NCBI GenBank assembly: GCA_035699745.1
Contig: DASSPH010000081.1
Location: 1 to 39,121, forward strand
Reading direction: 5' to 3'
DNA from: Vicinamibacterales bacterium
GTDB taxonomy: Bacteria > Acidobacteriota > Vicinamibacteria > Vicinamibacterales > 2-12-FULL-66-21
DNA: 39,121 bases
Shown: piece after piece, positions 8,279-38,636 of the stretch
Numbering within the stretch: position 1 is the stretch's first letter
Layout: every line of letters begins with the position of its first letter
Position numbers and translations under genes: made by a program
Notes under the pieces: model-generated
Database searches by the model: none
Seen by the model: the letters and a program-made list of their open reading frames with translations, nothing else
What the model was told of the DNA's origin: nothing

Positions 8279-9970
8279 ATGGTGCGCGCCTTTCCCTTCC
8301 TGCTCGCGCCGTCGATCTGGGCCTCGCGCAACCGCGCGCGCCGGCGCGAGCGCGGCGACGGCATGCGCGCCGGGTTCTTCGGCGGCGTCGCGCTCCTGGT
8401 CGCGGGGGCGATCTTCAGCGCGACGTTCTGGCTCACGCAGGAGCTGGGCGCCTTTGCCGACTTCGGCGATTACCTGCTGCGGCTCGGCCTCTCCTGGCTG
8501 TTCGTCTCGTTCCTGTCGTTTCTGGCGTTCAGCGCCATCGTGACCGCGCTGTCCACGTTCTTCCTGTCGGACGATCTGCGGCTGCTGCTGGCGGCGCCGG
8601 TCGCGGCACGGCGGGTGTTCCACGCCCGCTTCGCGCGGACCGTGGGGCTCGCCTCCTGGATGGTCGTCGTCTTCGTCGTGCCCGTGCTCGCCGGGGTGGG
8701 CGTGGGCCACTGCGCGCCGGCGTCGTACTACGCGCTCTCGGTCGCGGCGGTCACGCCGTTCGTGATCATCCCCGTCGCCGTCGGCACCGCGATCACCCTC
8801 CTGCTGGTCAACATCTTCCCGGCCCGGCGCGCGCGCGACATCCTGATGCTGATGGGGCTGCTGTTCGCCGGCAGCCTGGTCGTGCTGCTCCGCATGATCC
8901 AGCCGGAGCAGCTGCTCCGCGTCGAGTCGCTGCCCGACATCACCGACTTCTTCGCGACGCTGCAGTCGCCGATCACGCCGCTGCTGCCGTCGTTCTGGGC
9001 CGGGGAAGTCGTCTTCGCGGCGATGCAGGGGCGCGTCGACGTGCTGCACCTCGCCGCGCTGTGGACGACCGCGCTCGGCCTGGTGGTGCTGCTCGCCGCG
9101 GCGATGGACCGGTGGCACTTCGCCGGATTCAGCAAGGCGCAGGAGGCGCGGAAGACCCGCTTCACCCGTTTCGAGCTGATCACCCGCGCGGCCCGGCTGC
9201 TGCCGGTCTCGCCGGTGCAGCGGCAGCTGCTGGTGAAGGATCTGAAGATCTTCCTGCGCGACGTCAGCCAGTGGTCGCAGCTCCTGCTGCTGCTCGCGCT
9301 GGTGCTGGTGTACCTCTACAACTTCCGCGTGCTCGATCTCGATCGCAATCCCTATATGAGCGGGATGATCAAGAACATCTACGCGTTCGTGAACCTGGGG
9401 ATGGCGGGCCTGGTGATGGCGACGGTGTGTGCGCGCTTCGTCTTCCCCGCGGTCTCCTCCGAAGGGGCCGCGTTCTGGATCATCCGCACCGCGCCGATCT
9501 CGCTCCGGTCGTTCCTGTGGTCCAAGTTCTGGACCGGGCTGATCCCGGTGTTCCTGCTGACCGAGCTCCTGACGGTCGCCGCCAACCAGTTCCTCGGCGT
9601 GGCGCCGTTCCTCCGCATGGTCGCCGCCGTCGCGGTGTTCTTCATGAGCGTGGCGCTGGTCGGCCTGGCCACCGGCCTGGGGGCGCGCTATCCGCGCTTC
9701 GCCGCCGACAACGCGAGTCAGGTCGCCGGATCCTACGGCGGCGTCGCGTTCATGATCGTCGCCGTGCTGTTCACGCTGACGTTGATCGCGCTGATCGGCT
9801 GGCCCTCGTCGATGGTGTTGTGGCACGCCGCCCGTCCCGAGCGCGCGATCCCCGGCTCGACGATCGCGATCGCCCTGGCCTGCACGCTCGCCGCGCTCGT
9901 CCTCAGCGTCGGGACGTGGTGGTACGGCATGCGCACCGGCATCCGCGCCCTGGAGCACCTGGGCGACTAG
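8279..9970 (+). CDS. ABC exporter permease, multi-pass
   Basis: 563 residues with roughly a dozen hydrophobic segments spread along the whole length (for example LLVAGAIFSATFWL, LLLLLALVLVYLYNF and FMIVAVLFTLTLIALIGW). The size and alternating short charged loops fit the large ABC-2-like permeases with two six-helix halves. It directly follows the ATPase gene, so both very likely form one exporter together with the transglutaminase-like protein. The start ATG is followed immediately by a possible GTG; a GGGGAC motif precedes it. The gene ends just before the ~30 bp repeat array, which it faces with a convergent gene on the other side. Confidence 0.85.
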   Translation: MVRAFPFLLAPSIWASRNRARRRERGDGMRAGFFGGVALLVAGAIFSATFWLTQELGAFADFGDYLLRLGLSWLFVSFLSFLAFSAIVTALSTFFLSDDLRLLLAAPVAARRVFHARFARTVGLASWMVVVFVVPVLAGVGVGHCAPASYYALSVAAVTPFVIIPVAVGTAITLLLVNIFPARRARDILMLMGLLFAGSLVVLLRMIQPEQLLRVESLPDITDFFATLQSPITPLLPSFWAGEVVFAAMQGRVDVLHLAALWTTALGLVVLLAAAMDRWHFAGFSKAQEARKTRFTRFELITRAARLLPVSPVQRQLLVKDLKIFLRDVSQWSQLLLLLALVLVYLYNFRVLDLDRNPYMSGMIKNIYAFVNLGMAGLVMATVCARFVFPAVSSEGAAFWIIRTAPISLRSFLWSKFWTGLIPVFLLTELLTVAANQFLGVAPFLRMVAAVAVFFMSVALVGLATGLGARYPRFAADNASQVAGSYGGVAFMIVAVLFTLTLIALIGWPSSMVLWHAARPERAIPGSTIAIALACTLAALVLSVGTWWYGMRTGIRALEHLGD

Positions 9971-9980
9971 GGGCGACTAG

Positions 9981-10399
9981 GTGCCAGGTCTGCGAACGGG
10001 CGCCGCCCGGTGCCAGGTCTGCGAACCCGCCGCCCAACGGTGCCAGGTGCCACTTTCGGCCGACTCACAGACGTGGAACGGCTCGCGTTTGTCTGCAGAC
10101 CTGGCACCCTTCCGCCGCGCACCGGAGACCTGACCCCCTTCGCGCCCGTTCGCAGACCTGGCACTCCGTCCCGCCGGTTCGCAAACCTGATCCCCGCGGC
10201 GCGGGTTCACAGACCTGGCACCCCGTAGCGCCGGTCCACAGACCTGGCACCCCCGTAGCGCGGGTTCACAGACCTGGCACCCCGGTGGCGCGGGTTCACA
10301 GACCTGGCACCTCCGTAGCGCCGGTTCACAGACCTGGCACCCCGGTGGCGCCGGTTCACAGACCTGGCACCCCGTGGCGGCGGTTTACAGACCTGGCAC
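9981..10399. repeat. Two-armed array of ~29-30 bp GTTCACAGACCTGGCACC units
   Basis: The right arm has CAGACCTGGCAC at 10096, 10153, 10210, 10239, 10269, 10299, 10329, 10359 and 10388, with decayed copies near 10125 and 10182, so the period is 27-30 bp. The left arm holds the reverse complement (GTGCCAGGTCTG) at 9981 and 10010 and a truncated copy at 10040, again 29-30 bp apart. The ~12 bp between cores are GC-rich and similar to each other (CCCGTAGCGCCGG type). The arms could fold into a long imperfect hairpin. The last unit encodes the final residues and the stop of the convergent gene. The block fills the gap between two converging genes and does not look coding. Confidence 0.9.
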
Positions 10400-10924
10400 C
10401 AGCTTGGCGGTGGCGGCGGTCAGCAGCGGCACGCAGTAGAACTGGCCCTTGGCGTTGACCGGCTGTTCCCCCGGACAGGGGCCGGCATCGGCCGGCTCGC
10501 TGCCGACGTCCGCCTGAGGCGGACGCATCACGGTGCGCACCTGTCCGTCATACACACCGCTGAACTCGTAGGTCGCCGGACCCGGGCCGGGAGGAGGAGG
10601 CAGGGTGGGGCCGCTCAGGGCGACCGCGACGGTCGTGCCGGCGCGCTCGGCGGCGACGAACGCGTCCCAGGTCTTCACCGGCGCGATGCTGCCGTCGCGG
10701 GCGATCGCCCCGAGGGTGATGACGAGCGACACGCGCGTCGAGCCGTCGGCGATCTTCTCGGTGATCGCGCCGTGAAAGCTGACACCGCTGCCGCTGACCT
10801 GCCTGTTCTTGTACTGATCCGCGGCGCCGCCGCGAAACGCCTTCGCGAACACGGTCGCGTCCACGTCCGCCTGGACTGGCGCCAGCAGCAGGATACCGCC
10901 GAGGACGGCACAGCTCGCGCGCAT
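10385..10924 (-). CDS. Secreted hypothetical protein
   Basis: 179 residues with a clear signal peptide (MRASCAVLGGILLLAPVQA, cleavage likely near VQADV) and GGAGGAG upstream of the ATG. The mature part has a Pro/Gly-rich linker (LPPPPGPGPA) and two cysteines near the C-terminus (GPCPG and FYCVP) that could pair. I recognise no family. It is followed 69 bp upstream on the same strand by a large permease gene, so it may be the second gene of that unit. Its last five residues (LVPGL) and stop are written by a copy of the ~30 bp intergenic repeat, so the C-terminus is probably recent or flexible. Confidence 0.75.
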   Translation of the reverse strand: MRASCAVLGGILLLAPVQADVDATVFAKAFRGGAADQYKNRQVSGSGVSFHGAITEKIADGSTRVSLVITLGAIARDGSIAPVKTWDAFVAAERAGTTVAVALSGPTLPPPPGPGPATYEFSGVYDGQVRTVMRPPQADVGSEPADAGPCPGEQPVNAKGQFYCVPLLTAATAKLVPGL

Positions 10925-37884: not shown

Positions 37885-37907
37885 AAATTCAGATGAAGGA
37901 GTCACAC

Positions 37908-38636
37908 ATGCTGAAACGGATGAGCGTTCTGTTTTGCGGCGCCGTGTTCGCGCTGACGACAGCGGGGCTCGCGGCCCAGACCGCCACCCAGGACGCGAAG
38001 GAGAAGACCAAGGCGGCGGCCAGTCAGAGCGGCGAGGTGATCACCGACGCGGCGATTACCAGCGCGGTGAAGACCAAGCTGCTGGGCGATCCGGACGTCA
38101 AGGGGCTCAACATCGACGTCGACACCACCAACGGCGTGGTGACGCTCACCGGCGTCGTCCACACCGCGGCGGAGCGCACCGAGGCGCTGCGTCTCGCCCG
38201 CAGCACCAAGGGGGTCAAGAACGTCAAGAACAACCTCAAGCTGGAGCCGCGCCGCGCCGGCGCCGACACCACGACGACGGCGACGACGGGCCGGACCGAC
38301 AAGGACGACAAGCTGAAGGTGGAGATCAAGGACGACACCAAGGAGTCGGCCGCGAAGGTCAAGGACGCCAGCAAGAAGGCGGGGGAGAAGACCAAGGACG
38401 CCGCCAGCAAGTCCGGCGAGGTGATCACTGACGCGGCGATCACCTCCGCGGTGAAGACCAAGTTCCTCGCCGACAGCACGGTGCCCGGCCTGAAGATCGA
38501 CGTCGACACCAAGGACGGCGTCGTCACGTTGACCGGCACGGTGAAGAGCGCGGCGGAGAAGGCCGAAGCCGTCCGCCTCGCCAAGACGACCAAGGGCGTG
38601 AAGTCGGTCGTCGACAAGCTGACCGTTCAGCAGTAG
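37908..38636 (+). CDS. Secreted protein with two BON domains (OsmY-like)
   Basis: 242 residues with a signal peptide (LKRMSVLFCGAVFALTTAGLAAQ). Two closely similar BON domains (about 40-115 and 165-240) share GEVITDAAITSAVKTK, IDVDT..GVVTLTG and TKGVK..V, joined by a Lys/Asp/Thr-rich linker. The near-identity of the two opening blocks points to a fairly recent internal duplication. BON domains bind phospholipid surfaces, and OsmY-like proteins protect the envelope under osmotic stress. The ATG is chosen because AAGGAG stands 6 nt upstream; an earlier in-frame ATG (37893) lies before that site. A small hairpin (TTCAGC AGTA GCTGAA) spans the stop codon. Confidence 0.92.
   Translation: MLKRMSVLFCGAVFALTTAGLAAQTATQDAKEKTKAAASQSGEVITDAAITSAVKTKLLGDPDVKGLNIDVDTTNGVVTLTGVVHTAAERTEALRLARSTKGVKNVKNNLKLEPRRAGADTTTTATTGRTDKDDKLKVEIKDDTKESAAKVKDASKKAGEKTKDAASKSGEVITDAAITSAVKTKFLADSTVPGLKIDVDTKDGVVTLTGTVKSAAEKAEAVRLAKTTKGVKSVVDKLTVQQ

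Follow-up and report, generated by a model that had tools for sequence, protein, structure and literature searches.

A two-armed repeat array in a Vicinamibacterales genome is probably a gene-less element of a RAYT/TIRYT-type Y1 transposase

The window array and its neighbours

What is the array of short repeats that occupies positions 9980-10400 of the window, that is, of the whole stretch of 39,121 nucleotides of Vicinamibacterales DNA analysed here? It had been predicted to be a tandem array with two arms of opposite orientation, and both the mapped unit positions and Tandem Repeats Finder (scores of 96 for the left arm and 346 for the right) show that it is real: two minus units and a stub stand opposite 12 plus units. 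The left arm (9980..10026, minus strand) holds two GGTGCCAGGTCTGCGAAC units, which start at 9980 and 10009, 29 bp apart. A truncated third minus unit, the 10-bp stub GGTGCCAGGT (10039..10048, minus strand), and the junction of the arms (10049..10062), which contains no transposase gene, come next. The inner right arm (10063..10204, plus strand) has units starting at 10063, 10091, 10120, 10148 and 10177, of which 10063, 10120 and 10177 are degenerate; 10120 ends in GAGACCTGACCCC. Seven well-kept units, 29-30 bp apart and starting at 10205, 10234, 10264, 10294, 10324, 10354 and 10383, form the outer right arm (10205..10400, plus strand). Along the whole right arm the spacings are 28, 29, 28, 29, 28, 29, 30, 30, 30, 30 and 29 bp: the original prediction of about eleven units at intervals of 27-30 bp was right about the tandem array, and the count becomes 12 plus units with a spacing of 28-30 bp.

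The array lies between two converging genes. On its left is a permease gene with a Pfam match to ABC_tran_2 (PF16949; 8279..9970, plus strand), the stop codon of which is 9 bases ahead of the left arm. On its right the ORF list has a convergent ORF of 179 aa (10385..10924, minus strand), whose start looks signal-peptide-like by eye and which has neither a Pfam match nor a homologue in 39 relatives. The outermost plus unit encodes the last residues of this ORF, VPGL-stop, the stop codon itself (TTA on the plus strand, 10385-10387) being supplied by that unit. A search for orthologues of both flanking genes gave no empty site that would be a clean counterpart of the window locus; orthologues of the left gene in four relatives (G004, G013, G007 and G012) had no array in the stretch examined, but they have different neighbours. 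No target duplication was established. At 9961-9980, at the permease stop codon and directly before the left arm, GGCGACTAGG occurs twice in tandem; this doublet could be a duplication made on the arrival of the element.

The transcript of the window array is predicted to fold strongly because its two arms pair (z of -5.05 against 100 shuffles, none of which folded as well), in agreement with the earlier suggestion of a long transcript hairpin. Elsewhere the window carries repeats of other kinds. Around 29 consecutive GCTACCG/GCTACTG heptamers at 213-417 form a possible slippage locus, and an ORF of 247 aa at 37893-38636 has two halves that resemble each other (DAAITSAVKTK...VVTLTG) and by eye is BON-domain-like, with a 33-bp tandem repeat at 38323-38406.

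A genome-wide family of arrays

A search for the core elsewhere in the genome, as the original prediction had proposed, yielded 15 further arrays, giving 16 loci in 6.3 Mb with 168 units in a loose scan. The exact core AGACCTGRCMCC has 151 copies in the genome compared with 2 for the control, and AGACCTGGCACC has 85 compared with 1 for a control read backwards; the loose pattern GACCTGNCMC (273 versus 143 in the control) was too unspecific and was dropped. All 151 copies of AGACCTGRCMCC sit within arrays or in the half-array on contig C15, and no exact copy is solitary. C15 begins with the same units as the left arm of the C44 array and is probably the other half of that array. Both orientations are present in every array, with all minus units before all plus units in 14 of 16; the exceptions, of mixed unit order, are those on C14 and C41 (L015 and L019). 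The consensus of the unit is roughly GCCC-GTTYGCAGACCTG[G/A]C[A/C]CC. Its first variable place is A in 33% of units, and the GGGGTCAG form is thus a minority in the family, occurring side by side with GGTGCCAG within arrays. The longest arms, the left arm of C47 and the right arm of the window array, have 11-12 tandem units, and the period differs from array to array.

These arrays bear on whether the repeats are the product of a single local event. Such an origin would agree with the greater likeness of units within an arm than of units elsewhere, but the 15 other arrays have different flanks; they rule out a one-off duplication of the whole array and make a one-off local tandem duplication at the window locus extremely improbable. 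The original prediction had held that a lack of other copies, with irregular spacing in close relatives, would point to that origin: copies are abundant, and irregularity is present in part, as the period varies by locus, and no close relative turned up that shares the array and could serve to compare spacing. Local duplication is instead the likely way in which arms lengthen. Over 167 of the 168 units, spacers of the same arm have an identity of 0.61, compared with 0.44 for spacers of opposite arms in one array and 0.43 for those of different arrays; by eye, C24 alternates between unit types and C41 has repeats of longer units. Judged from sequence, the likeness of spacers within arms agrees with units being duplicated locally, sometimes as pairs.

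The same spacers speak to a CRISPR-like array, which the locus resembles only in unit size and spacing. Instead of near-identical repeats with unique spacers, the arrays have variable repeats and spacers that are alike within an arm, in two orientations per array and in places within genes; the spacers contradict a CRISPR, and we give anything CRISPR-like practically no chance. Classical REPs were rejected as well. Folded singly (DNA parameters, mononucleotide shuffles; all units but one at a contig end, 167 of 168), units gave mean z values of +0.45 and +0.17 and form no hairpin, and their base frequencies lack the conserved GT[AG]G foot.

A Y1 transposase gene between the arms of one array

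Three Y1_Tnp genes are present in the genome, and the best-scoring, C44:281-1159, sits between the arms of an array, with 10 minus units on one side and 6 plus units on the other in a loose scan; the left arm extends to the end of the contig. No arrays were found around the other two genes in the stretches examined. In the 13 array junctions searched for a remnant of a transposase gene there were short matches only, the best (E of 0.012) lying in a right-arm unit.

The C44 protein carries the HUH motif H60-Y-H62, both histidines of which are invariant in 30 sequences, as are Y119, N123 and P124 of the class 2 signature Y---NP. It matches PF01797 above the cut-off and scores 61.5 with NCBIfam REP_Tyr_transpos, below the cut-off of 80. 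Its structure model has a mean pLDDT of 90, and the nearest solved fold is 4ER8, E. coli TnpAREP (Z of 15.3, rmsd of 2.8 over 156 residues, the comparison covering mainly residues 6-167), with the second-best match at a Z of 9.9; a sequence profile run against the PDB matched 4ER8 alone at E <=0.01 (E of 0.0024). C-terminal helices are present in the model, and the HTH_23 match in this part is weak (E of 0.065, below the cut-off), while the homologue L042 has an HTH_38 match with an E of 7.7e-6, also below the cut-off. Sequence and model together suggest that the C44 gene encodes an intact-looking, RAYT-like Y1/HUH transposase.

The core motif in relatives and across phyla

Among 40 genomes (our own and 39 relatives), three-unit arrays were found only in our own, G000, and in G030, a relative that belongs to the same order but to a different family. 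The RAYT gene of G030 has two outward units to its left and two to its right, the right arm being separated from the gene by an assembly gap, and the remaining arrays of that genome are short, with at most three units per arm. From 42 RAYT matches in our own genome and the relatives we fetched 30 loci, and only those of G000 and G030 had at least two outward CAGACCTG per side. A more distant RAYT locus, L063, has one outward CAGACCTG per side, one of them more than 1 kb away, and no arrays. Some RAYT loci have an inverted motif of their own: TCTGACCCC in L040 (2+2 copies), AGGCCGGCG in L058 (3+5) and TGCCAGGCA in L061 (3+2). Most of the 30 show no clear inverted multi-copy motif. The RAYT-like genes of L058 (1064-1962, G031) and L061 (1232-2513, G036) thus have inverted multi-unit arms of different sequence.

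The association of core and transposase reaches well beyond the order. From at least 569 transposase loci confirmed in a scan of named genomes we kept 80, from Nitrospira, Proteobacteria, Elusimicrobia, Patescibacteria and others, of which 77 were usable, with 150 bases on both sides. Outward CTGACC occurs within 150 bases on both sides in 47 of the 77 and on at least one side in 67; the corresponding counts for inward CTGACC are 0 and 5. An unbiased search for outward 7-mers within 250 bases returned CTGACCC at the top, shared by 47 of 77 loci, as against 4 loci for the best 7-mer of the direct-orientation control. CTGACCC is part of the core, and its overlapping neighbours spell AAGACCTGACCCC. 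In the first 150 bases its density is 6.1 per kb outward versus 0.08 inward, and it drops with distance. The core therefore reads as the terminal repeat of the C44 transposase's family, close to the TIRYT motif GGGGWSAS. GGGGTCAG is found in the left arm of C44, whose right arm has the GGTGCCAG variant and not strict GGGGWSAS. In the window array GGTGCCAG is the form of most units and departs from GGGGWSAS at two places; GGGGTCAG occurs there only in the degenerate unit 10120.

Since the C44 array encloses a Y1 transposase gene and the core is the outward flank motif of its family, the window array is very probably a non-autonomous, MITE/REPIN-like element that carries no gene and consists of the terminal inverted repeats (TIRs) of a RAYT/TIRYT-type Y1 HUH transposase. 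Long arms are no general product of this transposase family, the phylum sample being otherwise without core arrays: four of 297 genomes were positive, and G000 alone has core arrays (G030 is outside the sample). The remaining positives, G014 (a heptamer), G260 (a short motif) and G313 (a differently cored repeat), were set aside as other repeats. Contig C1 of G014, from the same order, has scattered tandem heptamers of the AGACCTG type (L157, L160, L162, L164 and others), unrelated to the array unit though they match the same search pattern.

The original prediction favoured a different function, a protein-binding array or condensation site with every core on the same face of the DNA. At 10.5 bp per turn, 27-30 bp amount to 2.57-2.86 turns, a rotation of 206-309 degrees from unit to unit, and together with a period that varies among arrays this rules out helical phasing. 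A chromosomal array bound by a nucleoid, condensation, segregation or regulatory protein unrelated to the transposase would account for the strong conservation of the core (about 12 bp) and for its tandem repetition in two opposed arms. We consider it very unlikely: beyond the missing phasing and the locus-dependent period, a transposase family has this core as its flank motif, arrays occur inside fmt and other genes, and three-unit arrays are confined to 2 of 40 genomes, our own included. The data favour the terminal repeats of an HUH transposase over a binding or condensation function; the units may be bound by the transposase's own C-terminal tail.

Arrays at gene ends and inside genes

With a frame-and-GC3 heuristic applied to 30 sides of 15 arrays (C44 excluded), 13 sides were assigned a gene stop at -36 to +13 relative to the edge of the array. 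Five of these have the stop at +13, inside the first unit; one of the five, on the right side of C6, runs antisense to a gene prediction and is doubtful. An ORF on C15 that ends in GSGL-stop is a further case of stop donation. Such siting, the converging genes of the window locus and the fold of its transcript (z of -5.05) would suit an RNA or terminator element retained by the host, with a hairpin at gene 3' ends that terminates or protects transcripts. We regard this as unlikely, given that several arrays lie within coding sequence, that presence across genomes is patchy and that single units are unfolded; placement at 3' ends could merely reflect where a mobile element is tolerated.

Four arrays lie inside genes as in-frame inserts, in fmt, in an ABC-F ATPase gene and in two membrane-protein genes. 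Residues 4-240 and 309-360 of the fmt product align to residues 3-239 and 253-303 of 1fmt, leaving about 55 extra residues that match the array (residues 261-313). In the ABC-F ATPase the array (residues 551-634) follows the second ABC domain (352-482) and precedes the C-terminal domain (671-733), in a region that the alignment to the best solved homologue does not span. Homologues of the C43 membrane protein in several relatives match to about residue 299-322 and again from about 402-415, skipping array residues 310-411, and in G010 and G008 about 42-45 bases separate the two parts. For the PMT_2-TPR protein of C95, homologues match to about 480-489 and resume at about 573-587, skipping array residues 485-574. 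The insert is thus absent from homologues for three of the four in-gene arrays (fmt, C43 and C95). Two more arrays lengthen C-termini, in a PP-loop gene (TtcA-like by eye) and in a pseudouridine synthase gene. Just ahead of the array-bearing gene on C43, G000:C43:382-1672 (L020) gives piecewise matches to the membrane protein, one with an internal TGA, and is perhaps a broken paralogue of it.

In-gene arms keep to multiples of three. Among same-sense spacings between 24 and 33 bp (six outside this range were excluded), 26 of 27 are divisible by three in genes (C43, C83, C95 and the left arm of C6), a class defined after the ORFs were seen, versus 22 of 94 elsewhere. Counted by spacing the contrast has a Fisher p of 3e-12, units within an arm not being independent, and the in-gene figure becomes 28 of 30 when fmt is added. 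Counted by arm, for arms with at least two spacings (three single-spacing arms excluded), 5 of 7 in-gene arms are wholly in multiples of three versus 0 of 18 others (p of 4e-4). The exceptions to the frame rule are the minus arm of C95 (27, 27, 28) and the plus arm of fmt (30, 29). The divisible periods of in-gene arms suggest that arms grew once the element had inserted, with selection keeping the reading frame.

Discussion

The closest known relatives of these arrays are TIRtrons/TIRYTs, in which, according to passages of Di Nocera 2013 (PMC3733652) and Quentin 2018 (PMC6006769), a Y1 transposase has inverted flanking repeats instead of REPs. In passages of the former, TIRs often share GGGGWSAS (most, not all) and occur in dimers or clusters. 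The likeness extends to the GGGGTCAG unit form, which fits that motif, to the Y---NP signature, and to a longer protein with a C-terminal tail that may be HTH-like, its HTH matches being weak (Bac_DnaA_C, HTH_23 or HTH_28 in the TIRYTs described in those passages). A sharply defined TIRYT group is reported in Acidobacteria (PMC3733652, PMC6006769, in part). In passages of Quentin 2018 (PMC6006769), 20 of 26 TIRYTs fall in subclass 2.1, for whose genes no REP-like sequences are reported. The present arrays differ in arms of up to 11-12 units, in having two arms in every copy and no solitary exact copy, and in lying in frame inside genes; passages of PMC3733652 and PMC6006769 do not describe TIR arrays so long or within genes.

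REPINs, BIMEs and intragenic REPs with their RAYTs (passages of PMC2817692, PMC3116915 and PMC3733652) are also gene-less inverted units, spread in theory by a RAYT, for which Nunvar 2010 (PMC2817692, in part) gives the RAYT-REP model. They share the siting at gene 3' ends and between convergent genes, stop-codon donation and in-frame inserts, REP clusters of 43-82 residues being reported in passages of Di Nocera 2013 (PMC3733652), where TIR families are suggested, without a test, to form as REPs do. The units described here differ from them in lacking a single-unit hairpin and the conserved GT[AG]G foot. Rickettsia palindromic elements likewise lie in frame within genes, but in passages of PMC10969869 they measure about 150 bp and have a conserved peptide, and they are not two-armed tandem arrays. 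We found no description of long two-armed TIR arrays in the open-licence literature, and among the matches listed for the literal core motif there, none, by title and start of abstract, concerned bacterial repeats of such a kind. What is new is the long two-armed TIR arrays without solitary exact copies, partly translated; the TIR/TIRYT kind is already known.

In the mechanism that we propose for these gene-less elements, the transposase would cut single-stranded DNA at the units and move two-armed elements into or beside gene ends. Transfer would probably proceed as single-stranded DNA, as is described for IS608 and ISDra2 in passages of PMC6006769. Each arm would then grow in place as a unit or a pair of units is duplicated in tandem, and in genes selection would keep the reading frame. 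The window array is probably a passive one, except that its hairpin, long and present in both converging transcripts, may help to end or protect them.

More speculatively, and in our view rather doubtfully, it could be the transposase and not replication slippage that builds the arms, adding units one or two at a time beside existing units, with its C-terminal tail perhaps bound to double-stranded units as a platform. Copies would thus exist only as growing two-armed arrays, and inside genes, even fmt, the process would make in-frame segments of 50-100 residues. If this were true, the system would be a generator of new in-frame protein segments, even in translation genes.

TIR-type (non-REP) repeats of Y1 transposases are little studied. 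Here the cognate TIR repeat stands out clearly across phyla; 16 long arrays of it occur in one genome, some of them translated, and their bias towards multiples of three in translated arms offers a natural experiment on arm growth and on the tolerance of proteins for inserts.
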